Assembly (NCBI GenBank): GCA_033032175.1
Contig: CM065322.1
Location: 8,866,001 to 8,930,000 of the forward strand
DNA from: Saturnia japonica
Taxonomy: Eukaryota; Arthropoda; Insecta; Lepidoptera; Saturniidae
Reading direction: 5' to 3'
Length of the DNA stretch: 64,000 bases
In this document: in pieces, positions 2,079 through 56,164 of the stretch
How the letters are laid out: each line of letters begins with the position of its first letter
Numbering within the stretch: position 1 is the first letter of the stretch
Notes under the pieces: model-generated
The model's database searches: none
Seen by the model: the letters and a program-made list of their open reading frames with translations, nothing else
Told to the model about the DNA's origin: nothing
Position numbers and translations under genes: made by a program

Positions 2079-3120
2079 ATTAAAGAAAATGAGAAGAGAA
2101 AATATAAATACTATCACATACTGTTGAACTTAGCTACGGAATAATAAAACGTAATCCAAAACCGGATCATTCGGTGTCACGTTATCAATTTGACAAGATA
2201 CTTGAAGATGTTTACGTCGAATCCCGTACCGCGAATATATCGAAATGTACGTGCTTGTCTTAACCTGATAAATACATTATTCATGCAGCAACTAGCTGTA
2301 GTGTGATCATGTTTGATAGAATTCGTAAACGAAATTATATTATTTTACTGTGTATACGTTGATAATATCCAGAATAGTGAAACGCTTATAATATACATAA
2401 ATGTTATTTGTTTATAATCTTTATAGTATGTCAAGGTGGTTGAAGACTTTAAAGTGTGACGCCAGTAAAATATGAATCAAATGTCTCTTTGTTTTGGCAT
2501 ATATCGTCAGTTTAAAATATCTTCAAAATTATTTTTGAAGTATATTCTAGGCTCACCCGTCTGTTATTTTTCTATTCCTCTCTTCACATCTAATTAATAA
2601 TGGGGTAACGACAGACATGAACAAATTTTTTTTGGAGACCAACCACCTTCTAATACCTGCTAATAGTCTTACTTTGGCGTCCAGGGCCTTATGAAACGTA
2701 TGCGCTGTTTCCAAAAATGTTGTGTATTTTCTAAAATGTAAAATATGATGTACAAAATTTGCATAAATAAACTATTAATATCTAGGCTCTGTATCTTAAA
2801 TCAAAAAGAAAAACACCAATCTAGATAAACTTGGAATGTAAACATCATCTAAATATAAATTTTCATCCAAATCGTGGGAGCCGTTTCCGAGAAACCAAGC
2901 AAGAATTGCTCACATAATAGTTTTAAATTATTATTGTTTATTTTGAATTTTCACAAACTTGTTAATATTAAATTTTAGGAACACTATCAACTGACAGTGT
3001 AGAAAAAGAATATAAAATCCGAACTACTATCTTGATATAGGAAGAAAAAAAAGATTTCCCCGCCTGACATTGCACATAGGTCGTGAGTTGATGTGACTTT
3101 AAAAGCTCGTGCCTTTTAAC
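2079..3120. other. AT-rich DNA, no gene seen
   Basis: I see no ORF with family features, no splice-flanked exon and no RNA gene. The stretch near 2877-2905 (GAGCCGTTTCCGAGAAACCA) recurs in similar form at about 59477-59500, so part of it is dispersed repeat. Confidence 0.4.
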
Positions 3121-3129
3121 AAAATCCTT
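3121..3129. repeat. Candidate target-site duplication, 5' side of Jockey
   Basis: AAAATCCTT here matches AAAATCCTT at 7365-7373 directly after the poly(A). Four of the nine bases lie inside the A-run, so only TCCTT is independent evidence. Confidence 0.5.
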
Positions 3130-3134
3130 ACCGG

Positions 3135-3932
3135 ATGTACAGTAAAGATAAGCGGCCACTACAAATGGTAGTGGCCATATTGGACCTTTCCCCCGAGGGA
3201 AAGGCCATCTTCCAGCTAGAGACGGTGTGCGGGCTCTCCGGGATTAACGTGGAGCCCCCATACAAAAACCACCAGCCTGCGCAGTGCCACAACTGCCAGC
3301 TGTACGGGCACGCTGCCCGTAACTGTCATTCTCGTCCGCGGTGCGTAAAGTGCCGAGAGGACCACCCCACACGGGAGTGCACGCGCGAGCGTGACTCCGT
3401 CGTCCCCCCGAGCTGTGTGTTATGCGGGGAGGAGGGGCATCCCGCGAATTATCGCGGTTGCCCCAAGGCCCCGCGTACCACGCGGCCACGTACACAGAGG
3501 CAGGCGGCCCCCCGGGCGGCGCCCCCCGCCTCAGCCATCAAAGCGCAACCCCTGCTGGCGTCAGGGGAATTTCCCGCGCTGCCGGTCCCGCGCCAGCTCC
3601 CGGCCGCCGCCGGCCCCTCCGCACCCCGCGTGGTGCAACCGCAACCCGTGCGTTCATCGCAGAACGCATGGGGCCCCCGCCGCCCCAATCCACAGCCCCT
3701 TATGGCTATGGATATTCCCGCGCCCCGCGCTCCTGCGCCCCGCGCGCCCGCTAACACTGTCGTCAATAGTAACGACCTAATGATACTGCTCACCCGCGAG
3801 CACGATATCCGCGAGCTCATCGAATACAACGACCATTTGGAGCGCTTCGGTCTCATCAAGACCGCTTGCGCGTTCCCCCGCCTCGTAGAGACACTACAAC
3901 GTCTCGATCGCGAGGCGAGTAATAAAAATTAG
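3135..3932 (+). CDS. Jockey ORF1, gag-like zinc-knuckle protein (N-terminally truncated)
   Basis: A nucleic-acid-binding chaperone of the retrotransposon RNP. Residues 1-45 match the end of the domain that precedes the knuckles in Jockey gag proteins (KDKRPL and VEPPYK). Three CCHC-type knuckles follow: residues 51-64 (C-X2-C-X4-H-X4-C), 70-82 (C-X2-C-X3-H-X4-C) and 94-109 (C-X2-C-X4-H-X6-C). A Pro/Ala/Arg-rich low-complexity linker spans about 110-205, and a short helical C-terminus contains LLTREHDIRELIEYND. Full-length relatives are about twice as long, so the first ATG here is probably only the first Met codon after the 5' truncation at about 3130, not the native start. The frame is open to a TAG at 3930-3932. 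ORF2 begins 9 bp downstream in another frame. Confidence 0.88.
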   Translation: MYSKDKRPLQMVVAILDLSPEGKAIFQLETVCGLSGINVEPPYKNHQPAQCHNCQLYGHAARNCHSRPRCVKCREDHPTRECTRERDSVVPPSCVLCGEEGHPANYRGCPKAPRTTRPRTQRQAAPRAAPPASAIKAQPLLASGEFPALPVPRQLPAAAGPSAPRVVQPQPVRSSQNAWGPRRPNPQPLMAMDIPAPRAPAPRAPANTVVNSNDLMILLTREHDIRELIEYNDHLERFGLIKTACAFPRLVETLQRLDREASNKN

Positions 3933-3941
3933 GGCCTTTCA

Positions 3942-5252
3942 ATGGCTAAGTTTAAACCGAAAGCGTTAAATCTTTCATTTTTTAACGCGCGAAGCCTACT
4001 TCCGCAGCTTGATCTCGTCGCGACCTTTCTTAAAGATCACCAAGTAGATGTTCTTTTAGTGCAGGAGACGCTCTTAAAGCGTAGTAAACGTGATCCTAAA
4101 ATCGCGAACTACAATATTGTAAGAAATGACCGGGCCGGCCGCGGGGGCGGCACTCTCATTTATTACAAACGATCGTTATATTGTACGCCGGTAGATCCTC
4201 CGATACTTACCAATATGGAAGTATCCGTGTGTAGACTAGGAATGACCGACCACCCGTCCATAACGTTAGTTTCAGTTTATCTCTCGCCGAGGAAAGTGCC
4301 TCTCAGGTCTGACCTAGAAAAGCTACTTTCGCTCGGTGAATCGGTCATTATAGCGGGTGACCTCAATTGTGGACACACTTCGTTTGGCAATTGGAGAGAC
4401 TCCAGAAATGGTGTTAAACTCGAAGAGCTAACGAACGTGCTAAACTTTGATGTCATAGCGCCACCCACTCCCACCCACTTTCAAGACAACTGTATGCCGA
4501 CAGTGCTTGATGTAGCTCTCATTAAAGGTATCGCGCTTCGGTTACGACTCATTCGGGTCGTACACGAGCTCGACTCCGACCACCGTCCGGTCATCATGCA
4601 GCTAGGTCAACCAGACGACTCTAGCCCTCCTTCGGTCCAAGTGGTAGACTATGCTAAGTTAAAACATTATCTTGCGGACAGGCCGTCCTCGTCCAGTTTA
4701 GATAGGATCCCGGACGTATTGGGGTCCGTTGCGGATGTAGATCTCGCGATCGATTCCCTGGTCGACCACCTGCAGGTCGGCATTGGAGAGGCCTCGAGAG
4801 AGGTCGAAGAGGCGAGCGATCGCCGCTTCGTACTCCCTGCCGACGTGCGGGCATTGTTGACGGAAAAGAACGCGGCGACTCGTGCGCACGACCACTATCC
4901 GACCGAGGAAAACCGCGCACGCTTACGCGCGCTTCAGAGAGCGGTTAGAGCCCGCATATTAGAACTCAGGAGTCACAGATGGGACGCCCTCGTCGAAGGG
5001 CTAAGGCCGTCGCATCTGGCTTACTGGAAACTAGCTCGCAGCCTCAAAATAGAGGCTTCTTATCTTATGCCCCCCCTCGAGAGGGGTCCCGGTATACCGC
5101 TCGCCTTCGATAGCAGCGACAAGGCGGAGTGCCTCGCCACTTGTTTGGAGAGCCAGTGCTCTCCGAACAGTGTCGATGCAAATACCGACCGGGTCGAGGG
5201 TATCGATGGATGCGTGCGGGAGCTGGATAAGCTCCCCGCGACAGCCTCCTAG
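3942..5252 (+). CDS. Jockey ORF2, endonuclease half (ends at in-frame TAG)
   Basis: The N-terminal part of the retrotransposon polyprotein, an exonuclease-endonuclease-phosphatase fold enzyme that nicks target DNA to prime reverse transcription. The expected active-site residues are visible: Asn15 in FNARS, Glu42 in VQET, Asp140 and Asn142 in GDLNC, Asp190 in TVLDVAL, and the terminal DSDHRPV (Asp213-His214). Residues 230-430 form the linker towards the RT. The ATG at 3942 is the natural start, since relatives also begin a few residues before the NLSFFNARS block. The frame is stopped by TAG at 5250-5252, but the same frame continues immediately with recognisable RT sequence, so this is one ORF cut by a point nonsense mutation and not a separate protein. 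Confidence 0.88.
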   Translation: MAKFKPKALNLSFFNARSLLPQLDLVATFLKDHQVDVLLVQETLLKRSKRDPKIANYNIVRNDRAGRGGGTLIYYKRSLYCTPVDPPILTNMEVSVCRLGMTDHPSITLVSVYLSPRKVPLRSDLEKLLSLGESVIIAGDLNCGHTSFGNWRDSRNGVKLEELTNVLNFDVIAPPTPTHFQDNCMPTVLDVALIKGIALRLRLIRVVHELDSDHRPVIMQLGQPDDSSPPSVQVVDYAKLKHYLADRPSSSSLDRIPDVLGSVADVDLAIDSLVDHLQVGIGEASREVEEASDRRFVLPADVRALLTEKNAATRAHDHYPTEENRARLRALQRAVRARILELRSHRWDALVEGLRPSHLAYWKLARSLKIEASYLMPPLERGPGIPLAFDSSDKAECLATCLESQCSPNSVDANTDRVEGIDGCVRELDKLPATAS

Positions 5253-6836
5253 TCCCCAGTCACGTCTGAGGAGGTTCTTTCCATTATAAAAAGCCTTAAG
5301 CTCAGAAAAGCACCAGGTCCCGACGGGATCAGGAATGAAGTACTTAGGCTTCTTCCTGATCGCCTCATAGCTCTATTGGTCTGCATCTTCAATGTAGCCA
5401 TAGTCCACTGCCATTTTCCAGCCGCCTGGAAAAAGGCAATAGTCATAGGTATCCGTAAGCCCGGCAAGAGCGCGTCGCTTCCCGACAGCTATCGCCCGAT
5501 CAGTCTCCTAAATACGTTAGGGAAAATTTACGAGCGGATCCTTCTAAACCGTCTCAAGCCAATAATAGAGGAGAAAGACCTCTATCCGCCTGAGCAATTC
5601 GGTTTCCATGCTAGATATTCTTGCACTCATCAAGTGCACCGCCTCACGGAGCACGTTGCATTTAATTTTGCTGAACTTTATAAACCCCGCCGTACACTTG
5701 CGGTCTTTTTCGACGTGGCCAAGGCCTTTGATAAGGTCTGGCACGAGGGATTGATTTACAAGTTGTACCGCTTTGAAGTCCCCGATAGGCTAATTAAAAT
5801 AATTCGCGACTATTTAACAGATCGCACCTTCCGCTATAGAGTGGAAGGTGAATTGTCCACGCCCCGTCCAATACGCTCAGGCGTTCCCCAAGGTTCGATC
5901 CTGGCTCCTAGCCTATTTAACCTGTACGTCAGTGACCTACCTCGACTCCCGGAGGTCGAGGTAGGGCTATACGCTGACGATACAGTCTTATATGCCTCAG
6001 ATAGGAATAGATCCCACCTCAGACACAAAGTCCAACGCTCCGTGACCACTCTCGGGAAGTGGTTTAACGAGTGGCGTATAGCCGTTAATCCCTCGAAGAG
6101 CGCCGCGATGCTCTTCGATGCGGATTCGTCACAGATACCGTGGAAGCTTAAACCTGTTAAGCTCTACGATAATCCGATTCCGTATGTAAGAGAGACCAAA
6201 TATCTAGGGGTAACCCTAGATAGTAGGCTCTCTTTTAGACCCCACATCCGTAAGGTTAGGAACAGGGCCGCGTGGGTCCTGGGCCGGTTGCACCCTCTGT
6301 TGTGTTCGGTGAGTAAAATGTCCACGCGACATAAGCTCACGCTCTACAAGACGTGTATTCGACCAATTTTGACATACAGTTGCGCCGTGTTCGCACATAT
6401 GTCCGAGTCGAGTTTCAAACGGTTACAATCGATACAGAATAGGTTCCTCTATCGTCTCACCGGGGCCCCGTGGTATGTTCGAAGCGTAGATCTCCATAGA
6501 GATATGGAGCTTCCTTCGATACATGCCTACGTTAAACAGCTCTCCCGTTCGTATTTCGACACCGCGTCGAACCACGCGAATCCGTTAATAAAAACAGCCG
6601 CCACTTATGTTCCGGCACCCACGGACATCCGGTGCAAACGCCGGCCGCGCAATATTTTTATTGATCCCGACGATCACATCGAAAATTCGAATAAATATTA
6701 CACATCCGTCTCTCCAAACAGAGCGTGCCAGCGCCCACGCCCGCGTAACCACCGTTCTCTCCGCAGAGGGCGGGCGGTCAATTTCGCTCCAGCACACCCG
6801 TCACGTCCACCCTCTCCAGCGGTAACCCAAGCCTAG
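5253..6836 (+). pseudogene. Jockey ORF2, reverse transcriptase half (separated by nonsense codon)
   Basis: This continues in the same frame as the endonuclease half. RT blocks appear in order: KAPGPDGIRNEVL, SYRPISLLNTLGKIYER, QFGFHARYSCTHQVHRL, FFDVAKAFDKVWHEGL (first catalytic Asp), GVPQGSILAPSLFNLYVSDL, YADD at 5970-5981 (catalytic Asp pair), then KYLGVTLDSRLSF and the thumb region with LTLYKTC. All catalytic aspartates are present. The C-terminal region after about 6600 is basic and Pro/Arg-rich, ending at a TAG. No RNase H domain is apparent, as is usual for many Jockey elements. Because of the upstream TAG, the full polyprotein can be made only by read-through, or not at all. No initiation ATG is needed or expected at the start of this half. 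Confidence 0.88.
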
Positions 6837-14745: not shown

Positions 14746-14925
14746 CATTTCAAACTAGCCTCTCAACTCTGCCTGCGACTTCATACGTGTGCAACTCAGT
14801 ATACGTTTTTTTTTTTTTTTTAATCAATATATTCTCATTTCAAACTAGCCTCTCAACTCTGCCTGCGACTTCATACGTGTGCAACTCAGTATACGTTTTT
14901 TTTTTTTTTTTAATCAATATATTCT
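14746..14925. repeat. Perfect 90-bp tandem duplication
   Basis: Units 14746-14835 and 14836-14925 are identical base for base, including a 16-T run in each. The unit contains CTCAACTCTGCCTGCGACTT and ATACGTGTGCAACTCAGTAT. The period is divisible by three, which is the only reason a 71-codon frame with a repeated peptide appears; I do not call it a gene. Confidence 0.95.
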
Positions 14926-15766: not shown

Positions 15767-17488
15767 AATTTATAGCTTAATTTTAAGGTTCTTAGAAAAA
15801 CTGAAATTTATATACTATCATGTATAAAGTAAACAAGGAACTCTATTGTGGAATCGTTAAAGAAATCTCGTAGCAGCGAGTTGTAATCGAATTGTCCCGA
15901 GTCTGTTGAAACGAGAAACTGAATTACAATGCTAATGAACTCTTTGCATCTCGACGCAACTTTTATTTCTCTTGCCATAATCATTTTAAATTAATACAGG
16001 AGAGTTGGCTTTGTCTCAGTGTTTTTACGTTCATTTAAATTGATATTAAGGCATTGTTCAGTTTATTAAGAAGAAGTTTAAAAAAAAATCACCCTAATCG
16101 TGTCCATTTTCTTAAGGGTCTGCCTTTTCATTATCTTTAGAATCTTTTGACATTATACAAAGATAATAATAAAATAATACTTAAGTAGGCACCTATTATT
16201 TTTTATTTAAAAAATTACCCTTTTAATATTAGTGTAAAAAATAATTTGACGAAGTAAAATGAAACGTTCTTGTAAACAACTTAGAAAATAAATTGGTGAC
16301 TATTTATCACCGTGAAATTATTTTAAAATTAATAACAAAATAAAGACAAATAAAATGATGCAGATTATAATGAAGAATAATAATAATATAGTATAATTAT
16401 ATTTTAATAATTACGGAGCTATGGGAAATGCTGTGTACTCCAATTAGTAACATATGCATCGGGTATACTATTATCTATAATTATAATAATACTGTTTAAA
16501 GTGTATTGTTGTTGGAGTATCCATTAAATAAGCTATTAGTTTTACCTTCTACTAAACGAGCCAAACAAATACCGAAAAACAAAACATATTTATATCAAAA
16601 TGTATCGTTTATTCAAAATCTTAAATCTCCGAAAGTTCTTCACCGATTGCTTTATTATTTTAAGAAACGTTGCATTGAATACGCACTTGCTCTATAAGCT
16701 TTTTGCACAGACAATGGAAAAAATTTAAATAAATTATACCCACAAATACTGTGTACTTAAACATTTTTTCGTGCATTTTCTTTTTTTTTACATTTATCCT
16801 AACTGAGCTACAAGAACGCTAAGGTACAGCTAGTATAAAATAATAAAGAAAATGTAATTTTGAGAATAATTACAGGTTTTGTTGATTTACCAAACATTTG
16901 TATCAGTCATATAAAATCAAGTTTAAAGACACTCAATAACAAAAGAAAAATAATCATAAGCCGGGCCTAACTGGGCCGGCAGACGTTGTTCTGCTCTTTC
17001 CATTAGGCAATGACCCGATGACAGCGCCACTATCGAAACCTAAAATATCTATAAACGATCGTCTCGATAAAATAAATATATTATGTGAATAAGATCTCAA
17101 TCAGTCAAGTCGTTTAAAAGTTAGAGATAATTAACAGACGCAAACAAGATTTTTATATATCATTTATGTCTTATTATAAAGATAAACCTACTCTAAGATT
17201 GAATAATTATATTACATTGACTAAACTTATATCTTTACGTTAGATTACAAGCCTTAGTTCGTTACGATACATCATAAGGGGTAACAATATTAAATTAATT
17301 GAAGCCAGTACAATAACTCGGGAACGTTTCGGCTCGGTTTAATTATCCTAAATTCGGTATCATCAAATCAACCGCTGAGCCCGCAAGCCGTTACGTATAA
17401 ACGTCGAGACTCGCAACGCAACGCGGCCATGGAAACCTATATTATATTTATTTATATTGACATTGATATAGTTGATAAACGGTATAAC
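15767..17488. other. AT-rich DNA, nothing firm
   Basis: No gene is visible. A GC-richer block at 16968-17060 (GGGCCTAACTGGGCCGGCAG, then a segment with ACAGCGCCACTATCG) resembles, in inverted form, text near 46150 (AGTGGCGCTGTGATCG), so it is probably dispersed repeat. Confidence 0.35.
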
Positions 17489-17746
17489 TTTTACTTAGAT
17501 CTTTAAGAATGTTTAACACTTTACGCAATATTCTAATAGAAACTTAACCTTTCATCATGAAAAATCTTAACAAGAATATTAAGACACTTTAATTATATAG
17601 TACATTATTGCAAAGCCCGTGAAATAGGCAATTGCAGGTCGAGTATCGCCCGAGGACTTCACTAATACGAGACAGGCTATTGTCATTTCCGCTGAGGCAT
17701 ATATAGTGCTTTTCTCAAACATGCATGGAAATATTGTCATTATTTT
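17489..17746 (+). repeat. Left arm of a long inverted repeat (block X)
   Basis: The reverse complement reappears at 19784-20046. Shared text includes the segments around CAATTGCAGGTCGAGTATCG and GACAGGCTATTGTCATTTCC. Identity is very high over about 17489-17702 and lower towards 17746. It is non-coding and of unknown origin. Confidence 0.88.
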
Positions 17747-17966
17747 CGAAAAAAGAACACGCGAAGTATCAAATTTATGAACAAAGAAAATAAAATCCAT
17801 TGTAGGAGCGTTTTTGAATTTAGAACATTACAATGCTCCAGCAATGTTGTATGAAACGGCGTGCCGGGATGATTAAATACTCTTTTATTGGATCTCTTTT
17901 ATCGTTCTTGGTATGTCCATAAAATCAATACTTCGCATATTCTTTTTTCGAAAATAATGACAATAT
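17731..17966. repeat. Small foldback with 27-bp perfect arms
   Basis: 17731-17757 is the exact reverse complement of 17940-17966 (core TTCGAAAATAATGACAATAT). Weaker pairing extends about 20 bp beyond each arm. The ~180-bp loop contains ordinary AT-rich DNA. The left arm overlaps the end of block X, and part of the same core (AAATAATGACAATAT) recurs at 19784-19798. Confidence 0.85.
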
Positions 17967-18175
17967 CTCCATACATATTTCAATTTTTGCTGATTTTTTT
18001 TGGCTGTCAATGTTGAAAAATAATAAATCTGATAACTTATAATAAAGTGTCCTAACACAATATACTATCAATCGGCTTATTGCGATATTCAGTACTTTAT
18101 CTTTTATTTACACGTATTTTTAAATGACTTAAAAAAAAGAGGAGATTCCTAATTCGACTGTATATATTTTTTATT

Positions 18176-18402
18176 GATGTTCAGGCATAACTTCTTTGTT
18201 TTTAAACCGATTTAGATTACTCTTTTTTAGTTGGAAAAGGGATACATCAAATGTGGTGACCTTTTAATTTCTTTGGCATTAGACCTTGCACTTCAAAGTT
18301 ACAAGGATACAAGGATAGATAGAATAAGCAATACTTCAAGATACACCAGGAAACACCTCAAAATCATTGAAGATGGTTTTCTTCTTCTTTTTTAAATTGT
18401 CT
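18176..18402 (-). repeat. Dispersed repeat family D (copy 1)
   Basis: On the minus strand it carries AAAACCATCTTCAATGATTT, a 'GGTGT(A)TCTTGAAG' block, and CATAACTTCTTTG/AACATCAAT, in the same order as 21265-21525, 40650-40775 and 55265-55515. Non-coding. Confidence 0.55.
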
Positions 18403-18706
18403 TGTTGCTTAGTAGCTCTATGTATAGTACGTTACATGAAAATAATTAATTCAAAGTTTCACACTAAACCTGTATAATACAAAAACTTCTGTAATTAGTC
18501 GGTCTAATTTATTATTGGCTCTAAAATTTACAAGTAACATACTTGTCTGCACAGATAATGTCTGTCGCCTTCCGCATCAAGTGGGTTACTTTATTATACG
18601 CAATTCAGAACTTCGGTGTCTACTAGGGTTGCCAACTTTTGTTACATCAAATATAGTATTTTCAAAGCTATTTACTTCAGTAAATATAGTAGATGCCAAA
18701 AAGACG

Positions 18707-19783
18707 AAAAAAATATAGTAGGTTTCAAATAAATATAAATATCTAACGGAATATTTTTTATTGCTTGATAGACATGTAATTATCACTTCACTTCTTATAA
18801 GAATGGAGACATGCGTTAAGAGCACAATTCCGCCAGTGTCATGTGGTTAAACTTGAAACGAAGGAGATTGGCCGGTGGAAAGCTCTGGTCTGTTCTATAG
18901 AAGTTGACCAGTGTAATTTTGCTTCTAAGCTGAGTTAATCAAAATAAAAAAGACAACACAACATTTAACAACTCAACCACCATGCACTTTAAGTCTATAT
19001 TACCACCAATAATAACATATTAAACTACAACTGATAGTGACAAATTATTAAATTGACAATGACATACCAAATCTTGTTCAGAAAGAGATAAAGGCTGCGT
19101 TCTGCGTTCCGTTTTACACTTCAACGTTTTGGAATAAATAATGTTGCCTAATTTTTTTATCCAATATAATTATAGTTACATCCTCTACTATATATATATT
19201 TAGAAACATAGTAGCTAGACGACTAATATGGTAGGATACTATATTATATAGTAGGTTTGGCAATAATCTAGTGTCAACCGTTAAAAGGATCTTTGTCCTC
19301 TATGCGTTCATTAACCAATTATCAGATCGCGATTAAACTTTCGTAGGATATAGTGCGCAAGCTCCCAAAGATTCAGTATTAGTTCAACCAGTTTACAATA
19401 GGTGGCGCACGAGTCCGTTTCATTTCGAAGAAAAGAGGAATAAAGTCAAGGCCAAAAGCTGCAAGACTCATAACCTATCATAAAAATTTGTCTGTAAGGC
19501 ATTTACTTACTAAGTATTGTTAGATTTTATTAATGTTAGAATTTCATTTCAATTTGTTTCAGGGCATTTCTAAGGATATTATGCGTATGCTGCCCAAGGA
19601 AATTACGAAAGAAATATCAACCACAACTTCGATTCAAACAATCACAAGTAAGTTTTTGCTGAAGTAATAACAGTATTATCGGGTGGTCGGACAGAACAAT
19701 TGTATCCGACTGGATCCCGACTACCATACACATGGTAATAAGCCCATCACATTGACTCTCTTTTAGATTGTCGCGTTTCGGTG
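18707..19783 (+). repeat. 1.08-kb direct duplication, copy A
   Basis: Collinear with 20043-21119 at a constant offset of 1336 bp. I counted roughly a dozen differences by eye (about 1%), for example in the GAGTCCGTTTCATTTCG region and one extra G in the ATTTAGGAAAC stretch of copy B. It contains the 85-bp exon-like segment 19563-19647 and a family F repeat (19290-19492). It ends exactly where the inverted block X copy begins. Confidence 0.95.
19563..19647 (+). CDS. Exon-like segment, copy A (unknown host gene)
   Basis: An 85-bp segment bounded by a strong acceptor (TTTCAATTTGTTTCAG) and a consensus donor (GTAAGT). In phase 0 it reads GISKDIMRMLPKEITKEIST then TTSIQTIT plus one base. The leftover A joins TA of the exon at 23189 to make ATA (Ile), after which PGIDDDVFFSDTTRDVSIVT continues in frame. 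A second frame is also open, but it stops soon after the join. The segment is duplicated without change at 20899-20983. Its length is not a multiple of three, so using both copies in tandem would give A+GG, CAT, TTC, TAA, a stop three codons in. Protein family not recognised; there is no transcript evidence here. Confidence 0.6.
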
Positions 19784-20046
19784 AAATAATGACAATATAT
19801 TCCAGCTCCATGTTTGCAGAAAAGCGGCTATATATGCCTCAGCGGAAATGACAATAGCCTGTCTTCGTATTAGTGAAGTCCTCGGGCGATACTCGACCTG
19901 CAATTGCCTATTTCACGGGCTTTGCAATAATGTACTATATAATTAAAGTGTCTTAATATTCTTGTTAAGATTTTTCATGATGAAAGGTTAAGTTTCTATT
20001 AGAATATTGCGTAAAGTGTTAAACATTCTTAAAGATCTAAGTAAAA
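19784..20046 (-). repeat. Right arm of the long inverted repeat (block X copy)
   Basis: Reverse complement of 17489-17746. It lies precisely between the two direct copies A and B, replacing the sequence that follows copy B (TAGTGTATATCCAGCTCCAG). Short shared text CCAGCTCCA appears near the junction in both contexts, which hints at a microhomology-mediated switch. Confidence 0.88.
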
Positions 20047-21119
20047 AAATATAGTAGGTTTCAAATAAATATAAATATCTAACGGAATATTTTTTATTGC
20101 TTGATAGACATGTAATTATCACTTCACTTCTTATAAGAATGGAGACATGCGTTAAGAGCACAATTCCGCCAGTGTCATGTGGTTAAACTTGAAACGAAGG
20201 AGATTGGCCGGTGGAAAGCTCTGGTCTGTTCTATAGAAGTTGACCAGTGTAATTTTGCTTCTAAGCTGAGTTAATCAAAATAAAAAAGACAACACAACAT
20301 TTAACAACTCAACCACCATGCACTTTAAGTCTATATTACCACCAATAATAACATATTAAACTACAACTGATAGTGACAAATTATTAAATTGACAATGACA
20401 TACCAAATCTTGTTCAGAAAGAGATAAAGGCTGCGTTCTGCGTTCCGTTTTACACTTCAACGTTTTGGAATAAATAATGTTGCCTAATTTTTTTATCCAA
20501 TATAATTATAGTTACATCCTCTACTATATATATATTTAGGAAACATAGTAGCTAGACGACTAATATGGTAGGATACTATATTATATAGTAGGTTTGGCAA
20601 TACTCTAGTGTCAACCGTTAAAAGGATCTTTGTCCTCTATGCGTTCATTATCCAATTATCAGATCGCGATTAAACTTTCATAGGATATAGTGCGCAAGCT
20701 CCCAAAGATTCAGTATTAGTTCAACCAGTTTACAATAGGTGGCGCACGAGTTGTTTCATTTCGAAGACAAAAGGAATAAAGTCAAGGCCAAAAGCTGCAA
20801 GACTCATAACCTATCATAAAAATTTGTCTGTAAGGCATTTACTTACTAAGTATTGTTAGATTTTATTCATGTTAGAATTTCATTTCAATTTGTTTCAGGG
20901 CATTTCTAAGGATATTATGCGTATGCTGCCCAAGGAAATTACGAAAGAAATATCAACCACAACTTCGATTCAAACAATCACAAGTAAGTGTTTGCTGAAG
21001 TAATAACAGTATTATCGGGTGGTCGGACAGAACAATTGTATCCGACTGGATCCCGACTACCATACACATGGTAATAAGCCCATCACATTGACTCTCTTTT
21101 AGACTGTCGCGTTTCGGTG
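20043..21119 (+). repeat. 1.08-kb direct duplication, copy B
   Basis: Second copy of 18707-19783, about 99% identical by eye. It starts within the A-run at the end of the inverted block X copy and runs on into unique-looking DNA, so B is probably the ancestral right-hand context. Confidence 0.95.
20899..20983 (+). CDS. Exon-like segment, copy B (identical to copy A)
   Basis: All 85 bases match 19563-19647. The acceptor polypyrimidine tract and AG are also identical. The donor is GTAAGTG here against GTAAGTT in copy A. Either copy could be spliced to the 23189 exon in the same phase, and the two cannot be used together without an immediate stop. Whether B, A or both are used cannot be judged from sequence alone. 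With ~1% background divergence, an unchanged 85-bp stretch is expected fairly often by chance, so identity alone is not proof of selection. Confidence 0.6.
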
Positions 21120-21264
21120 TAGTGTATATCCAGCTCCAGGCTTGCAGGGCGGCATGAGAGCGACTACCGTCGTTAGATTACTAATTTGTCGGTGGTCACC
21201 GTTGTTTTTGGATTCTACTGCGCTTACCATCAGGCACAGAGCCGTCAGTTTGCTGTAATATTAA

Positions 21265-21525
21265 GTATTAACAAGACAATTTTTAACAAAAAGGAAAACC
21301 ACTTTCAATGATTTTGAAGAGTTCTCTGGGTATCTTCGGAATTGAAGATACAACGGCAATAAAATTAAAACCTTTGAGATATCCCGTATCCAAATAAAAA
21401 AGAATCATTCAAATCTGTTCATAAACAAAGAAATTTTCGCTGAACATCCATAAGAGAAATATTAATACACGTCAATAGAGTAAGCTCTGTCCTTTTTTTG
21501 AAGTCTGCTAAAAAAATACACTACA
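21265..21525 (+). repeat. Dispersed repeat family D (copy 2)
   Basis: Starts near ATTTTTAACAAAAAGGAAAA. It contains CAATGATTTTGAAGAGTTC, GAATTGAAG, ATAAAATTAAAA, a '...AAATCTGTTCATAAACAAAG' block and GAACATCCATAAGAG, in the same order as the copies at 40650 and 55265. Confidence 0.6.
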
Positions 21526-23188
21526 TTTCAATACAAATGGACATTTCTTATGTGAGTTGCTAATAAAATAATCGCTTTTTATATAGAACGAACACTGTGT
21601 TTCACGTTTCAGTTACGAACGACTCGGAGATATTATTCGTCGAGCGAACTGATGGGCATACAACAGATCAGGCAAAATTCCTGCGAGCAAACCTATATAT
21701 AGCGATACTTTGTACTCGTGTTTCTATCTCAACTATAAATTTCTAAACGTCTTGATGAGAATTTTGATTTCAATTTACATTTTCCAACCGTTTCTGTATC
21801 AGGTCGAAGTGTTAAATTAAAAATAGTTCATCTATTGCTCGTTTTATGTATTTGGAAATCTTGGAAGTAATAAAATTCTTCTACAAATTTATAACAGAAG
21901 CAGAAAGAGGTATGTCGAGTCTGCAATGAACTGTCGCAATGCAATGTTTTTGTGTCCCCTTTCCGTACTCCATGTGTGTTACAAAACATCTTAAACTTCG
22001 CACTTGATCTAAAATTTAATTATTGACTCCTTCCCCTTTATATTATAGTAATACCTTCTTTTATGCATGCATGCGTCTCATATTGTTAAAAAATGTGTAC
22101 CGTGAATAACGGTTAATACCTTTCCACATTGATGTACGTTTATTGAGATTTTGGTGTTTAATGTCGTTCATTAAAAATTCTTTGGCATGGTTGTTATTAT
22201 TTATAGCACTAATTGTAATTTCAAATCATTCAATTTGATACACGTAGATAATTGTTATGGTCTTCCCTATGAATTTTTTCTTCATAATATACCTGTTATG
22301 AATTGTGATACTTAGGAAAATAAATGTATTATATTTGAGTCAATTTTGCGGAAGGGTTACACATAAAATACTTTCCAGTTAAGTTTTGGTAAAGTAAAGA
22401 AAATTTAACGTTTTTTAATCAAGTCGTCAAAAAATTATTTTCGGGCGCTTACATACATGGGTTACGCTGGCTAAACCATATGAGATGCATGAAAATAATG
22501 TACTAAAGAATTGTAGTTCTTCAAAAAGCCTACAGCAAAATCCGCAATTGCATATGTCTATCTCATAAGGTTGACTCACAGTAACCATTACTAAAGTGAT
22601 AAACCCTAAATCAATTGAACATGCTTTTTTAACATAAATGAACACAACTTTGTAAATTGCACCCGTGCGATGCTAGGGCGGGTCGCTACTACAATATAAT
22701 CTTTAACATTTTTTTTTCTGAAAAATAATATTCGTTATCTAAAATATCTTTTTAGCAAGCATTATACTAAAAATAAAATCTATAGGCTCAGTAAAAATAA
22801 CTTATATTAAAATTCTTATTACAATATTTATACTTAACTATGCATGTGGAATAGAAATTCAGAAGCTTGCGAAAATTATACTTTTAATAAATATGTTATT
22901 CATAGTTTATAAAAAATCAGATGAAATTATTACATTATTACTGCAAAAAGCTATGATTTTCAATGTACGTAAATTTTTTTAAAATTCATTTCAAAAAAAT
23001 AACGTATTGTAATAAATATCAATTGTCAAGTAAAAGTAACTTTTTAAAATAAGTTTAAGTTTTCAACGAAGTATGAAATCGTCTCGTATTTTGTTAATTT
23101 TAATATATATAATAATGACTTAATGACACAATAGCATGACTCGATAGAGTTATTACCAAATGTACTCATAAAGTCCGTCTATTTTCAG
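21526..23188. other. Non-coding stretch before the candidate last exon
   Basis: AT-rich, with no family-like ORF. 22436-22500 (GGGCGCTTACATACATGGGT, then TACGCTGGCTAAACCATATG) is a diverged piece of repeat family G. The last ~15 bp (GTCTATTTTCAG) form a good 3' splice site. Confidence 0.5.
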
Positions 23189-23578
23189 TACCCGGTATCG
23201 ACGATGATGTATTCTTCAGTGACACAACACGAGATGTGTCGATTGTGACATCAAGCCCGCGCGGGGAACATACGGGCTCCGCGTGCTAGATGTTCCTGAT
23301 GCAGGGACCGCCGCTCGTTGCGCTCCAATAGGCGCGGTGAGCGGCCAGCCTCTGCGGATAACTACCGCATGAGATCCATAGAACAAACCTCTTTTGAAGA
23401 GCCCATCCAATACGTTGACAGGCATATGTGCTCTGATAGTGCCCCTTATTGTCAAGACTCTGAATCAGTGAGTGAAGTGAGCTTAGACAGTGATACTAGA
23501 AACCCTTCGATCAAAAGAAACAGCAAAAGAAAAGTGACGTATCAAACCAAAGCTGAAGTGATCTCAACAAAGTAGATT
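23189..23578 (+). pseudogene. Candidate last exon with apparent frameshifts (unknown host gene)
   Basis: It follows the acceptor TCTATTTTCAG. In phase with the 85-bp exons it reads PGIDDDVFFSDTTRDVSIVT, then SSPRGEHTGSAC, then TAG at 23287. The next frame is open from about 23250 to 23369 (LDVPDAGTAARCAPIGAVSG). The third frame is open from 23300 to 23578 and ends acidic/Ser-rich then basic: SIEQTSFEEPIQYVDRHMCS, SESVSEVSLDSDT, KRNSKRKVTYQTKAEVISTK, stop at 23576-23578. All three parts look coding and overlap in order, as if two single bases were missing from a GC-rich section. It may be an assembly error, a pseudogene, or a true early stop at 23287. The composition suggests a cytoplasmic tail, but I cannot name the protein. 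A poly(A) signal lies 260 bp downstream. Confidence 0.55.
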
Positions 23579-23860
23579 TAATATAAACGTGTTCTAGTCA
23601 TTGTAATATTATTTTCTATCAGAAGCTGTGATTTACTCTATAACTCTGTATGTCTATGTAATATTGTATATAAATTATTTTAATATGTAGGTAAGTGTAA
23701 GTTTTTCATAGTTTCCAAAGCTTGAAGTAGACATAATATTATGTAAAAAATTAAGAGGGAAATAATGCGCTTCGTTGTAAATATTTAATAACAAATAACA
23801 TTGCTATAATATAATGGAAATACTCTTATTGTTCAATAAAGTTATCCAAATTTCTTGAAA
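23579..23860 (+). terminator. Putative 3' UTR and polyadenylation signal
   Basis: AT-rich sequence after the TAG at 23576-23578 that contains a canonical AATAAA at 23835-23840 (TTCAATAAAGTTATCC). This is the first canonical signal downstream of the stop and supports the region as the end of a transcription unit. Confidence 0.45.
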
Positions 23861-24153
23861 AATCAATTGTAGTTAAATCTAGAGTAAAAGTAAATATCAC
23901 ATTAGGCGAATAAACAACATAATTATCAGGTTAATAATAATTGCTATTGTATTGCTCATTTGAAAACTTAATTTGTTATTATTTATAATACAATTCATCT
24001 ATATTAAGTGACATAGAAAAGACTGAATAACCAATTCAAATATATTTTATAATTATTTTACAGAATAAACGCTTGCACTTAACATTGCATTATAAGTTTA
24101 TCCATCGTTTATAATTGTATTATTTTTATAAAATGAAAACACAAATCTATATA

Positions 24154-24810
24154 CAGTGTAAACTCTTTATAACGAAACTCAAGGGACTGGGCATTTTTTG
24201 TCGTTATAGAGAGTTATCGTTATATGGAGTGAACAAAAAAACAACCAAATTAACAAGAATTTTTAATATGTAATTCTTAGATGATAAATGCTTATAAATT
24301 ATTGTTTACACATATAGTCTGATAACTTTGTCTGACGTTTTTTGTTACTTGTTTTGTGTTATTTTATTCATATCTTCTTCTATCAAACTTTTTCGTCAAC
24401 ACTAATCGCTTTCCGTTTACTGGGCATGTTAACAGTTTCAAAGTAGGTTTACGACTGATAATACGATAGGTACCCAGTATGCTTGGTCGAAGACCATCAC
24501 TTCCGAGAAAACAATGCGTCATACTGCACGTGTTCAAGGCAATTAAGGATAACAAAAGCTAGACCGACCTCGGATGTTTCGGAGCTTCAAAGTCTTTTGT
24601 TACCTGATAACATAACATAAACAATAATACCGACAAAAAATATTTACTGTCTAAAAATATGAACACATTTCTTCGTAATAGAAAATGGCGTATCGCTTTA
24701 AAGAGTGTTTCAATATGTGGGTTTTAACGCAAACCAACCAAGTTGGGCTCACTTCATCGTTATAGGGAGTTAATCGTTATAAAGGATAACGTTATAAAGA
24801 ATTTACACTG
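24154..24810 (-). mobile_element. Non-autonomous pogo/Tigger-like DNA transposon
   Basis: 657 bp with terminal inverted repeats: CAGTGTAAACTCTTTATAAC at the left end and the complement of CAGTGTAAATTCTTTATAAC at the right end, one mismatch in about 21 bp. It is flanked by TA on both sides (24152-24153 and 24811-24812), the duplication typical of the Tc1/mariner/pogo superfamily. Further inner repeats (CGTTATAGAGAGTTATCG and CGTTATAGGGAGTTAATC) extend the pairing. Only a stub of the transposase start remains inside, so it needs a helper enzyme. Orientation is set by that stub. Confidence 0.9.
24383..24427 (-). pseudogene. Stub of pogo/Tigger-like transposase N-terminus
   Basis: On the minus strand an ATG at 24427 opens MPSKRKAISVDEKV before TGA. 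This is the start of the CENP-B-type helix-turn-helix region of pogo-family transposases (Ser-Lys-Arg-Lys near the N-terminus followed by a short helix). Everything beyond is lost, so the gene is dead. The position inside a TIR element with TA flanks supports the reading. Confidence 0.65.
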
Positions 24811-24825
24811 TATTATATAAAAATA

Positions 24826-24990
24826 AATGTTTCTTTGTTTGTTTAGTACTCAATGCGTTCGGACGAAACTGGTGAGTTGTGCGATCAACTACAAAGGTTT
24901 CTTTATTAGTACAGTAAGTGTTCAACAGATGGCGTGCAACTCGTTACATTTTCTTTTCCACATTTTGACCTGTATAAATATTTTAAAATG
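24826..24990 (+). repeat. Dispersed repeat family F (copy 4)
   Basis: AATGTTTCTTTGTTTGTTTA, then GGTGAGTTGTGCG, then TTCAACAGATGGCGTG, then TACATTTTCTTTTC, matching 1525-1735 in order. It begins 14 bp after the pogo-like element. Confidence 0.55.
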
Positions 24991-25394
24991 TTATATTATT
25001 AATAGTAAGTAATTTGTTAATGATTGAATTTTTTTTATACAATATTTAAGTTTTTGGAACAATGTGTTCATTTATGAAAATTCCATGTAGGATTAAGAAA
25101 ATAGAAATATACACCAAAGTTGATAGTTTCACTGGTTTCACAGATACTGGTTTCACACATACTTGATACGTTCGTATCCTAATCTCTCTTGTTGTCTATT
25201 TGTACGTTACATTATCCATGCGGCTAATGACATCATATTTCTTTCCCTGACGTTAAAGTGACAGACAAAGATATCACGAAAAGTTTGTAAAAAAATATAT
25301 TTTAATAAACATAATAATTTGAACGCTTATTTATTCACACTCATTTTTGAACTTTACTACTATCAGGGACTTACTATTGTCGCGTTTACTAAAG

Positions 25395-25956: not shown

Positions 25957-26374
25957 ATTCATCATCATCATTTCAGCCACAGGACGTCCACTGCTGAACA
26001 TAGGCCTCCCCCATAGATCTCCAGAGCGACCGATCTTGTGCGGCCTGCACCCAACGGCTCCCAGCGACCTTTATTATGTCGTCTTTCCATCTAGTGGGGG
26101 GCCGTCCTACGCTGCGCTTTTCGGTGCGTGGTCTCCACTCGAGAATCTTTCTGCCCCAACGGCCGTCAGTTCTCCGAACTATGTGCCCCGCCCACTGCCA
26201 CTTCAACTTGCTAATACTTTTGGCAATGTCGGTGACCTTAGTTTGTCTACGGATCTCCTCATTTCTGATTCGATCTCGTAGAGAAACACCAAGCATAGCC
26301 CTCTCCATAGCTCGCTGAGCGACCTTGAGCTTTCTTATGAGGCCCACAGTGAGCGACCACGTCTCTGTGCCGTG
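25957..26374 (-). mobile_element. RTE-type LINE 3' end (copy 1), 10-bp TSD
   Basis: On the minus strand it encodes the C-terminus of an endonuclease-reverse transcriptase: TWSLTVGLIRKLKVAQRAME, SLRDRIRNEEIRRQTKVTDI, KLKWQWAGHIVRRTDGRWGR, VGRPPTRWKDDIIKVAGSRW, AAQDRSLWRSMGEAYVQQWT. It ends in a short (ATC)n-type 3' tail (TGATGATGATGAAT), as RTE elements do. TATTCATTAC flanks it at 25947-25956 and 26375-26384, a perfect 10-bp target-site duplication. The fragment frame is open for 124 codons, so it is fairly young, but everything upstream of the last ~130 residues, including RT and endonuclease, is missing. Confidence 0.9.
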
Positions 26375-40649: not shown

Positions 40650-40775
40650 TATTAACAATTTTTAACAAAAAAAAGAACCAACTCCTATGATTTTTAGGAG
40701 ATTCCTTGTGTACCTTCGAGGTAAAGGTCCAATGTCAATCAAATTAAAATGAGATCACCCTTGGGTGTTCCCAGC
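40650..40775 (+). repeat. Dispersed repeat family D (copy 3)
   Basis: ATTTTTAACAAAAAAAAGAA, TCCTATGATTTTTAGGAG, TACCTTCGAGGTAAAGGTCC and AATCAAATTAAAATGAGATC, in the order of the other copies. It is shortened at the 3' side. Confidence 0.55.
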
Positions 40776-46213: not shown

Positions 46214-47149
46214 TCAGCAGGTATCATAATTATAATGTATAACAAAATATTCACGACTGGAAAATACGAGGCTATATAAAGTATAGAAATCATTAGGACT
46301 TAGGTCGGGGCTGTACGGTGGATGGTCTAATAATTCTATGTTTTCTTGCTCTAAAAACTCTTTTGTTCTGTGCGCGGTGTGAGAACTCGCATTGTCGTGA
46401 TGGAGGATGATGCGGCGGTTGCCGTTCTCTTTACGGACTTCAGAAACGACCTGTGGCAAACAAATGCTAGCATACCATTCTGCATTAACCGTTCTTTGTC
46501 CCTCAAGAGGAATAGTCGTAAAATGGCCGGTTTTGGAGACAAACGTGGCCACCATTTTTTTTGCAACACTCCGTGAACGAATAATTTTTGTTGGCTTTAA
46601 CTCATTTTCGAACACCCAAACTCGTGACTGGTTTTTTGTTTCGTTTTCGTACGCGTATATCCAGGATTCGTCACCTGATACTATGTTGTATACAGCATTT
46701 GAGGATCCTGCGTGAAATCTTTCGAGAGTTCTGACGCACCAAGTAACGCGAGCCGCTTTGTGCTCTTCACAGAGCGAATGCGGTATCCATCGGGAAAACA
46801 ACTTTTGTACACCTAATTGTTCATGCAACATTATTTGTATTTGACTCATGCCAATGTCTAAAGTTGCCTTAATTTCGCGGTATGTTACATGTCGATCTTC
46901 CTCAATCAGCTTACGCACAGCATCAACGTTTTCTTGGGTGACTGCAGTTTTTGAACGACCTTGACGAGGATCATCACTGAGCTTGACACGTCCACGTTGA
47001 AATTCAGCAAACCAGCGATAAATTGTGGTTTTGGATGGGGCTTCATCACCAAATGCAGAAATCATCCGGTCAACACACTGTTTTTGTGTTAAACCACTTC
47101 GAAGGTCATAATAAATCATCGCTCTTGAATTTTCTCGAGTCAATTCCAT
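46214..47149 (-). CDS. Mariner transposase, C-terminally altered
   Basis: A cut-and-paste transposase of the mariner family. From Met at 47149 (MELTRENSRAMIYY): an N-terminal paired-type DNA-binding region with two helix-turn-helix parts (residues ~1-110, with GLTQKQCVDRMISAFGDEAP and SKTTIYRWFAEFQRGR), the linker FSRWIPHSL, then the catalytic core. The three acidic residues are present: Asp in SGDESWIYAY, Asp in ILHHDNASSHTA, and Asp in YSPDLSPNDF. The last two are separated by 34 residues (D,D34D). After SPNDF the expected C-terminal ~40-50 residues are missing and an unrelated tail (YTLYSLVFSSRE) ends the frame at about 311 residues, against ~345 usual. I prefer this Met over upstream in-frame codons because homologous transposases begin here. 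No clear TIRs are seen, so the element is probably truncated and immobile. Confidence 0.88.
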   Translation of the reverse strand: MELTRENSRAMIYYDLRSGLTQKQCVDRMISAFGDEAPSKTTIYRWFAEFQRGRVKLSDDPRQGRSKTAVTQENVDAVRKLIEEDRHVTYREIKATLDIGMSQIQIMLHEQLGVQKLFSRWIPHSLCEEHKAARVTWCVRTLERFHAGSSNAVYNIVSGDESWIYAYENETKNQSRVWVFENELKPTKIIRSRSVAKKMVATFVSKTGHFTTIPLEGQRTVNAEWYASICLPQVVSEVRKENGNRRIILHHDNASSHTAHRTKEFLEQENIELLDHPPYSPDLSPNDFYTLYSLVFSSREYFVIHYNYDTC

Positions 47150-47249
47150 TTTCTCAACGACTAAACAAGTTTGACAAAACCTTGTGACAAGACCGAGAAT
47201 CTTTTTTAAAATAAATAAATTGTATTCGATTTTTAAAACCAAGGGGTTT

Positions 47250-47690
47250 TCAATTCATCATCATCATCATATCAGCCGTAGGACGTCCACTGCTGAACAT
47301 AGGCCTCCCCCATAGATCTCCAGAGCGACCGATCTTGTGCGGCCTGCACCCAACGGCTCCCAGCGACCTTTATTATGTCGTCTTTCCATCTAGTGGGGGG
47401 CCGTCCTACGCTGCGCTTTCCGGTGCGTGGTCTCCACTCGAGAACCTTTCTGCCCCAACGGCCGTCAGTTCTCCGAACTATGGGCCCCGCCCACTGCCAC
47501 TTCAACTTGCTAATCCTTTTGGCTATGTCGGTTACCTTAGTTTGTCTACGGATCTCCTCATTTCTGATTTGATCTCGTAGAGAAACACCAAGCATAACCC
47601 TCTCCATAGCTCGCTGAGCGACCTTGAGCTTTCTTATAAGGCCCACAGTGAGCGACCACGCACTTAAAGCACACGCACTGAGCAATTAAA
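47250..47690 (-). mobile_element. RTE-type LINE 3' end (copy 2)
   Basis: Close relative of 25957-26374, with the same protein tail on the minus strand (AWSLTVGLIRKLKVAQRAME, SLRDQIRNEEIRRQTKVTDI, KLKWQWAGPIVRRTDGRWGR, GRPPTRWKDDIIKVAGSRWV, AAQDRSLWRSMGEAYVQQWT) and a longer (ATG)n 3' tail. His-to-Pro in WAGHIVRR is one of few differences. The frame is open for the fragment. CAATT occurs at both ends (47248-47252 region and 47681-47686 region), too short to be sure of a duplication. It lies about 100 bp from the start of the mariner reading frame. Confidence 0.88.
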
Positions 47691-54556: not shown

Positions 54557-54754
54557 CCGCAGCTTCTACTGACAAACAATGCACAGCTACTACTGACAAA
54601 CAATGCGCAGCTACTACTGACAAACAATGCGCAGCTACTACTGACAAACAATGCACAGCTACTACTGACAAACAATGCACAGCTACTACTGACAAACAAT
54701 GCGCAGCTACTACTGACAAACAATGCGCAGCTACTACTGACAAACAATGCACAG
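54557..54754. repeat. 24-bp minisatellite, 8 units
   Basis: Units of GC(A/G)CAGCTACTACTGACAA followed by ACAAT, from 54557 to 54748, plus a 6-bp partial unit. Unit 1 is slightly diverged. Units 2-8 differ only at one A/G position, in the order A,G,G,A,A,G,G, which looks like duplication of larger blocks. Because 24 is a multiple of three, repeated octapeptide frames appear on both strands; I do not call them genes. Confidence 0.95.
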
Positions 54755-55264
54755 TCTAAACCACTGGAGATAAAGGCGTTATAAAATAAACGTACTTCAT
54801 TTTTTTTGCTAAGCACACTTCTCTTTTTCTTCATTGGTAAATTGAACCCATGCGAAGACGGGGCAAGTCGCTTGTATGTAATAATATAGCATTATATTTC
54901 CTTTAAAAATATTGAAGAAGTCATTCTTTGGTTCATTTCGCCTACTATTAATCAAACCTCTAAATCTCTGTAACACTCTCCGTGTATTTGTCCAATTTAT
55001 TTCCACAGACCACTCCTATATCATAATAATTACGAAGCCCGACATTTATTATTATTTGTATAAATATTCCTGTCTACATTATATGCATTATTTATTTGTT
55101 TATTATATTTTATCCTGTATTGCGAACAAGATTCGAATAGTTTTATTATTATTGGAGATTTCCCCCACAATACGTAACAAAAATAACGACTCCTATTAAA
55201 TTCAACATAGAGTAATAAATTTTCTAAATTACCTCAAGTTTTTCTCTGTATTATGTAGGTACAT
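54755..55264. other. AT-rich DNA, nothing recognised
   Basis: No gene or repeat structure is supported between the minisatellite and repeat D. Confidence 0.35.
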
Positions 55265-55515
55265 ACAAGAAAATTTTTAACAAAAAAACCCAGCTTCAAT
55301 CGTTTTGAGAAGTTCCCTGGTGTATCTACGAAGTCGAAGGTTCATTGCCAATTAAATTAAAATGTAACCACCCTTAGGGTGGTTCACCCAGCTTTTCAAC
55401 GAAAAAAGAATCATGCAAATCGGTTCATAAACTAAGAAGTTATGGCTGAACATCCATAAAAAAAATATGCGTTTGAATTGAGAGCCTCCTCCTTTTTTTG
55501 AAATCGGATAAAAAT
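55265..55515 (+). repeat. Dispersed repeat family D (copy 4, most complete)
   Basis: AAAATTTTTAACAAAAAAAC, CTTCAATCGTTTTGAGAAGT, TATCTACGAAGTCGAAGG, TTGCCAATTAAATTAAAATG, AATCGGTTCATAAACTAAGA, CTGAACATCCATAAAAAAAA, CTCCTCCTTTTTTTGAAATC. It defines the order used to recognise the other copies. Confidence 0.6.
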
Positions 55516-56164
55516 ATTGTGGGATTTTACGAAAACTAGAGGCAAAGAAATTTTCTTCTATAAAAAATTTTGCACGAATTTTATTTCTCGTATTAAATTT
55601 TTAAAGTGACAATGTTTGAGAAAATAAATGTTTAAATTCATTAAATACTTCTAGAAGTTTTTGACTCCAAGATCCAAATACCTGACTAGTCAATATCGCA
55701 ATTACAGCGATACTACAGAAAATATCAAGTATTTAGTCTCTTTCTTTATATACATCCAAACAATATGAAGATCTACAAAAATATTTTTTTCATCTGTCTC
55801 TAATTTTGTAATTTAAAGCATGGGTGCAAAGTAAAAAAAATCAACTATTTATTCGAAATTTATATTTTATTAATATAAGGAAATACATGCTCGTAAATAC
55901 ATTAGCCGTCGTCGCCCTGCCTCAAAAGTGGTTATTTATCAGCATATACCATAAAGTGATACAGCAAAAATATTACCAACTTTGGCATGTGAAACAAACA
56001 AAATAATTTTAGAGACATTGACCTTGACAGCTTGGCATCAAGCCAAGGAAAGAAAAGTGCTGATATAGAGGCGCGCTAAAGGGCAAATCGGGATTAACTG
56101 GAATATTTAGACTCGTCCCAAATTCTCCAAGTGTAAAATGTCAGTTTAATCGTGATTATATATG
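55516..56164. other. AT-rich DNA, nothing recognised
   Basis: No supported feature. Confidence 0.35.

Follow-up and report, generated by a model that had tools for sequence, protein, structure and literature searches.

The window, by which we mean the whole 64-kb stretch of Saturnia japonica DNA analysed here, holds the 3' end of a moth-like gene that probably encodes an aminergic-type class A GPCR. Two copies of an 85-bp exon, each embedded in a copy of a 1-kb duplication, are followed by a putative last exon whose conserved frame contains two TGA codons (Table 1). An exon scan (strong acceptor, donor and open frame) gave 26 plus-strand candidates in all; among those with a GC content of at least 0.35 and outside the transposon at 3-7.4 kb, the two 85-bp exons were the sole plus-strand candidates at 16-24 kb.

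Table 1. Coordinates in the window of the features discussed in the text.
Feature	Position	Strand	Content or basis
Source segment S	17489..17745	+	97% inverted match (blastn) to 19784-20046, 182 nt perfect
Duplication copy A	18707..19783	+	11 differing of ~1,078 aligned columns against copy B
85-bp exon, copy A	19563..19647	+	splice sites; read with one leading base, AFLRILCVCCPRKLRKKYQPQLRFKQSQ
Spacer, inverted copy of S	19784..20046	-	overlaps copy B by 4 bases; spacer proper 19784-20042, 259 bp
Duplication copy B	20043..21119	+	alignment to copy A
85-bp exon, copy B	20899..20983	+	identical to copy A
Last exon, C-terminal tail, phase 0	23189..23575	+	YPVSTMMYSS...KVTYQTKAEVISTK*; four homologues
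First in-frame TGA	23246..23248	+	W in 4 of 4 homologue records
Predicted stable RNA fold 3' of first TGA	23249..23350	+	includes a 15-bp hairpin, 23310-23345, 3' of second TGA
TAG ending the frame when both exon copies are included	23287..23289	+	translation of the A+B join
Second in-frame TGA	23297..23299	+	W in 4 of 4 homologue records
Final TAG of conserved tail	23573..23575	+	reading frame
First AATAAA polyadenylation-like signal 3' of tail	23835..23840	+	others at 23909 and 24064

Elsewhere, the window carries several mobile or repeated elements. A largely open non-LTR retrotransposon frame at 3120-6836, with zinc-finger-associated, endonuclease and reverse transcriptase domains, is broken by in-frame TAG codons at 3930 and 5250, and a Mariner-like transposase (346 residues open, HTH_48 and DDE_3) lies on the minus strand at 46217-47254. 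Two repeat copies 21 kb apart (25959-26258 and 47258-47557) agree at 97% over 300 nt, and each of them overlaps an open frame on the minus strand that has no Pfam match at E<=0.001. Tandem repeats comprise a perfect 90-bp duplication at 14746-14925 (2.0 copies, 100%), which is either very recent or an assembly effect, and a 24-bp repeat at 54560-54754 (8.1 copies, 97%) with several frames open.

The duplicated exon and the inverted piece between its copies

The first-pass annotation had described copies A and B as collinear and about 99% identical, and pairwise alignment bore out both the coordinates and the identity, with nine substitutions and two single-base indels. Because a 1-kb match at 99% does not arise by chance, the duplication is real in this sequence. 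All of the differences are confined to 19202-19768, and the initial 495 bp are free of any change, so that their spread is clustered and somewhat non-uniform. The label 'tandem' holds in that there are two collinear copies, but an inverted piece of upstream sequence sits between them. This spacer and its source S form one of two inverted pairs of at least 100 nt in the 64-kb window, and the sole pair above 91%.

The edges of the rearrangement carry short shared sequences. At the left edge of copy B, AAAA (20043-20046) is common to the inverted segment and the duplication, and at the right edge of copy A, TTTCG is present in both sequences shortly ahead of the switch point. The order of copy A, inverted upstream piece and copy B fits replication template switching, which we infer to be the cause of the rearrangement. 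At the start of the spacer (first 60 bp), the indels relative to a plain inverted S resemble the flank of copy B; these could reflect a further switch, conversion or mixed polishing. The duplication is probably the product of a recent template switch within a gene for what may be a receptor.

In a pre-mRNA, S and the spacer are predicted to form 254 base pairs (-424 kcal/mol) with copy A within the loop. It is conceivable that this pairing could loop out exon copy A, a route to exclusion that does not depend on reading frame. A separate repeat family is inverted around both exon copies (18115-18406 against 21253-21517, 74-81% alike) and is also matched at 40655-40749 and 55246-55517. The predicted pairing of its two flanking members (-152 kcal/mol) would cross that of S and the spacer in a pseudoknot-like arrangement.

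The two 85-bp segments are identical, as had been noted, and each has a pyrimidine-rich CAG acceptor and a GTAAGT donor; their length is, likewise in agreement, indivisible by three. Recent duplication of a whole, apparently splice-competent exon is well supported. The identity of the exons had also been taken as a sign of a nascent switch, but it is uninformative in this respect, because, at the rate at which A and B differ overall, an 85-bp segment would show only about 0.7 differences. Both copies give the same peptide, so the duplication offers no choice at the protein level yet. A search for a homologue of the 85-bp exon gave no candidate.

The last exon, its two UGA codons and the predicted RNA fold

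A protein search with a composite query returned four homologues among 18 candidates, with E values from 2.2e-35 to 1.5e-22. They match the last exon in a single frame that starts TAC CCG (YPV), and are 73-77% identical over the exon. The upstream limit of the similarity is a Q, which in the window corresponds to the CAG of the acceptor. From this frame and the coincidence of the limit with the acceptor we conclude that the last exon begins in phase 0, and hence that the 85-bp exon is read with one leading base. The frame-0 reading of the 85-bp exon (GISKDIMRMLPKEI...) was abandoned once the homologues had set the frame of the last exon. Strand, phase and order suggest a splice from the small exon to the last one, which would make both part of one gene.

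The AFLRILCVCCPRKLRKKYQPQLRFKQSQ exon resembles, and may encode, GPCR helix 8 and the palmitoylated start of a tail of aminergic type (alpha-adrenergic-like octopamine or D1-like dopamine), a resemblance from which we infer the identity of the receptor. Neither the 28-aa exon peptide nor the tail matched a GPCR family in Pfam; the matches obtained fell below the cut-off and were to one unrelated family (E 0.055, and E 0.14 for homologue P0003). No PDB match at E<=10 was found for the tail or the 85-bp exon. Viral and prokaryote contigs gave pattern matches and no relative, and peptide strings had no match in literature text. Among the plus-strand open stretches of at least 30 codons in the window, no NPxxY-type stretch was seen upstream. 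The seven-helix core may lie outside the window, and, if the helix 8 reading is right, the upstream intron is probably longer than 19.5 kb.

Within the last exon the two TGA codons stand out. All four homologue protein records show W at both positions, these are the only W residues in the aligned exon, and the only two in-frame stops sit exactly there. After the second TGA the frame stays open to the final TAG, and the tail has no other in-frame stop and no frameshift. Downstream of the second TGA, the window agrees with the homologues at 58/81, 61/88, 66/90 and 68/91 residues (69-75%), and the homologues are identical to one another at 56/79 to 72/91 (71-79%). Private changes in this part, counted at columns where the others agree, number 6 of 49 in the window and equally 6 of 49 in homologue P0004; the other homologues have 5/48, 3/46 and 1/44. 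Between the stops, 11-14 of 16 residues are identical to the homologues, somewhat below the 12-15 of 16 seen among the homologues themselves. The tail gives no clear sign of release from constraint, and the last exon is most likely a tail reached by double stop-codon readthrough.

Other ways of passing the two codons were considered. For an in-frame intron that removes both TGAs there are 14 GT-AG combinations (acceptor at 23300-23400), none of them with a GTRAGT donor, and the stretch between the stops is conserved (11-14 of 16 residues), so such an intron was rejected. Selenocysteine was rejected because there is no SECIS element: a search of 17000-25000 for Rfam elements, SECIS included, gave no match at E<=1.

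The RNA downstream of the stops is predicted to be unusually stable. For the 100 nt after the first UGA (23249-23348) the minimum free energy is -54.3 kcal/mol, with a dinucleotide z of -4.01 and a stability matched by 1 of 200 shuffles; the corresponding 100 nt 3' of the second UGA have a dinucleotide z of -3.43, again matched by 1 of 200. Shuffles of the exon that preserve the protein (synonymous shuffles) gave z -5.23 (0/300) after the first UGA and z -3.63 (0/300) after the second, and local shuffles gave -3.88 (0/300) and -2.41 (5/300), respectively. The stretch between the stops has no clear excess stability when taken alone (z -1.91, 12/300). The segments 23146-23245 and 23400-23499 had dinucleotide z values of +0.21 and +0.15, and no unusual fold appeared in shuffle tests of 23400-23499 and 23476-23575. 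The 15-bp hairpin begins 10 nt 3' of the second UGA. When the same test was applied to 115 windows of three transposon ORFs, the mean was -1.35 (sd 1.51, minimum -6.0) and 12 of the 115 were at or below -3.5; the fold after the first UGA ranks second of 116 against them. The predicted fold after the first UGA is unusual, yet the shuffle statistic alone overstates it.

Exon choice, rival explanations and the favoured reading

With either exon copy alone, the frame gives 47 residues from the start of the exon to the first UGA; with both copies skipped it reads TRYRR and then stops. When both are included, the frame supported by the homologues runs for 89 codons, counted from the start of the exon, before it closes within the last exon; 61 of these residues make up an out-of-frame tail. 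The first-pass annotation had placed a stop three codons into the A+B join. That stop does occur in frame 0 (RHF*), but in the homologue-supported frame it gives way to the 61 residues. The corollary that the frame allows only one copy per mRNA rested on the unsupported frame and falls with it, since an open tail of this length does not support exclusion by frame. All of the stops reached from A, B, A+B or skipping lie in the last exon, where mRNA decay is not expected.

These results bear on whether the exon copies are a nascent pair of mutually exclusive exons, which we consider improbable. The duplicated exon is complete with both splice sites, its length is indivisible by three, and an excerpt of PMC6071210 argues that duplicated pairing intron sequence can lead to such exons. 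Similar-length homologous neighbours are indeed present (85 bp, identical), but the peptides are the same, and joint inclusion leaves an open 61-residue tail where an immediate stop had been expected; that expectation was the argument of the earlier annotation and is no strict requirement for mutually exclusive exons. An exon switch is neither demonstrated here nor enforced by the reading frame, and the copies probably do not represent a newborn one. A more elaborate version, in which the rearrangement brought a splicing switch with it from the start, strikes us as very improbable: the 254-bp pairing would loop out copy A, inclusion of A+B would give the 61-residue tail that avoids both UGA codons, and exon copy number would pick between a readthrough-controlled and an alternative tail of the same protein. 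The duplication itself might be an assembly artefact, with two haplotypes or a chimeric read arranged in tandem and a real genome that is single-copy. This is unlikely, though with more in its favour than either exon switch: a difference of ~1% falls within the range of allelic divergence, the differences between A and B cluster in 19202-19768, 4 kb upstream there is a perfect tandem of 90 bp, and the copy-B-like indels at the start of the spacer are such as mixed polishing might leave. Against it, the junction itself is occupied by an inverted piece from 1-2 kb upstream and shows a short stretch of shared sequence (20043-20046), which points to template switching rather than a haplotype join. 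Such an artefact would cover the duplication alone and is compatible with readthrough of the tail.

For the tail, the main rival is that the homologues have true TGG codons and that this genome, or this copy (for example a degenerate gametolog or an allele), has twice changed TGG to TGA, truncating the protein after CRL. We think this doubtful, although it is the alternative that we take most seriously. W is printed at both sites in all four homologue protein records, a last-exon stop should not trigger mRNA decay, and loss of the tail may leave a receptor functional. It would require, however, that both changes fell on the only two Trp codons and that both gave TGA; over all single-step possibilities of the 156 codons, the probability that two random nonsense changes are both TGG to TGA is 0.0003 without transition bias and 0.002 with a bias of 4, in a test devised after the pattern had been seen. 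The otherwise intact tail, with no more private changes than the worst homologue, also argues against this rival, and the extra-stable fold would be left without an explanation. A-to-I RNA editing of both UGA codons to UGG would restore exactly the Trp of the homologues within a locally stable fold, but it is the least probable of the alternatives. Each target A has a 5' G, a neighbour disfavoured by ADAR, and in the predicted fold no long duplex contains either A, the first being paired within a 6-bp stem and the second part of a 3-nt loop.

Readthrough can be reconciled with the W residues of the homologues if these also have TGA at both sites and their protein records come from a gene prediction that translated TGA as Trp, which is the reading we prefer. 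Metagenome gene callers try code 4, in which TGA is Trp. Ordinary prediction would presumably split such a tail, which may be why just four records were found. These are 83 to 264 residues long, and a search for longer relatives (about 286-910 residues) with a length-padded reading gave 65 candidates, none of them at E<=1.

Our best explanation overall, which we hold with moderate confidence, is a receptor-like 3' end with an exon copy made by template switching and a C-tail that is read through two UGA codons, probably with the aid of RNA structure. The small exon, which would encode helix 8, would have been copied recently by template switching, with an inverted piece of the upstream intron inserted, and splicing through either exon copy would give the same protein. 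The last exon would encode the true C-tail, and readthrough at both UGA codons would probably be aided by the structure just downstream. Translation would mostly terminate at the first UGA, with the long conserved tail present on a minority of chains.

The next exon, with its probable readthrough tail, is in our view a more interesting feature than the duplication. If it is read through, it would be a further example of stop-codon readthrough in insects, possibly in a receptor, and one gene would yield short- and long-tailed forms of a protein by translation and not by splicing. It also serves as a warning that gene finders may label such a gene truncated or a pseudogene. As for the duplication, one rearrangement may duplicate an exon and at the same time give rise to a long intronic duplex, so that a single-step origin of exon switches becomes testable.

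Comparison with known systems

Stop-codon readthrough is widespread in insects, and the closest parallel to the tail is Drosophila Oamb. According to an excerpt of PMC4528330, the FlyBase annotation includes readthrough in 328 fly genes, 22 of them double, with two sites in Oamb, one of them double. Oamb and the moth gene have in common an in-frame stop inside a conserved C-terminus and double readthrough, putative in the moth, as well as an amine receptor product if the helix 8 reading is right; the moth gene is a candidate ortholog only, and its readthrough is predicted from sequence. In an excerpt on Anopheles, Oamb-like splice forms have three exons in common and differ in one large fourth exon, and no 85-nt exon is mentioned (PMC4253978). 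Since this fourth-exon pattern has no obvious match to the 85-nt helix 8 exon, we do not name the moth gene Oamb. PMC4528330 was the sole match in a literature search for readthrough of Oamb stop codons; no receptor readthrough case in Lepidoptera was among the matches listed, and excerpts of PMC12869069, PMC8417969, PMC3840789 and PMC3265452 contained nothing on readthrough in amine receptors.

The sequence context of the two codons is mixed. In the excerpted text of PMC5100048, RNA structure is predicted for 9-10% of readthrough candidates and for less than 1% of other transcripts, and a C directly after the TGA is a more frequent context in ancient readthrough candidates. Here the first UGA has C as its next base. 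The second has U instead, and structured readthrough stops in flies are less often TGA, although the difference in mosquito is not significant (same excerpt); both points count against readthrough here. A possible moth parallel comes from Automeris io, in which the gene model of Dll is likewise split by a stop and readthrough has been raised. It differs in that Dll is a transcription factor gene and no duplication is mentioned in the excerpt, whose authors know of no record of the frequency of readthrough in Lepidoptera (PMC10917498).

The duplication finds its counterpart in tandem exon duplications with competing RNA pairings. Ivanov and Pervouchine propose, in the excerpt available, that tandem duplications which copy pairing intron sequence give rise to mutually exclusive exons (PMC6071210). 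As in those systems, an exon has been copied together with intron sequence, and complementary arms can loop out one copy; unlike them, the complementary arm here seems to have been made by the rearrangement itself, is inverted, and encloses copy A only. Complementary intron arms around an exon are also the common element with the reverse-complementary matches described in an excerpt of PMC8330042, which can promote exon skipping and back-splicing and which comprise 13 nt in worm zip-2, against the 254 pairs predicted here.
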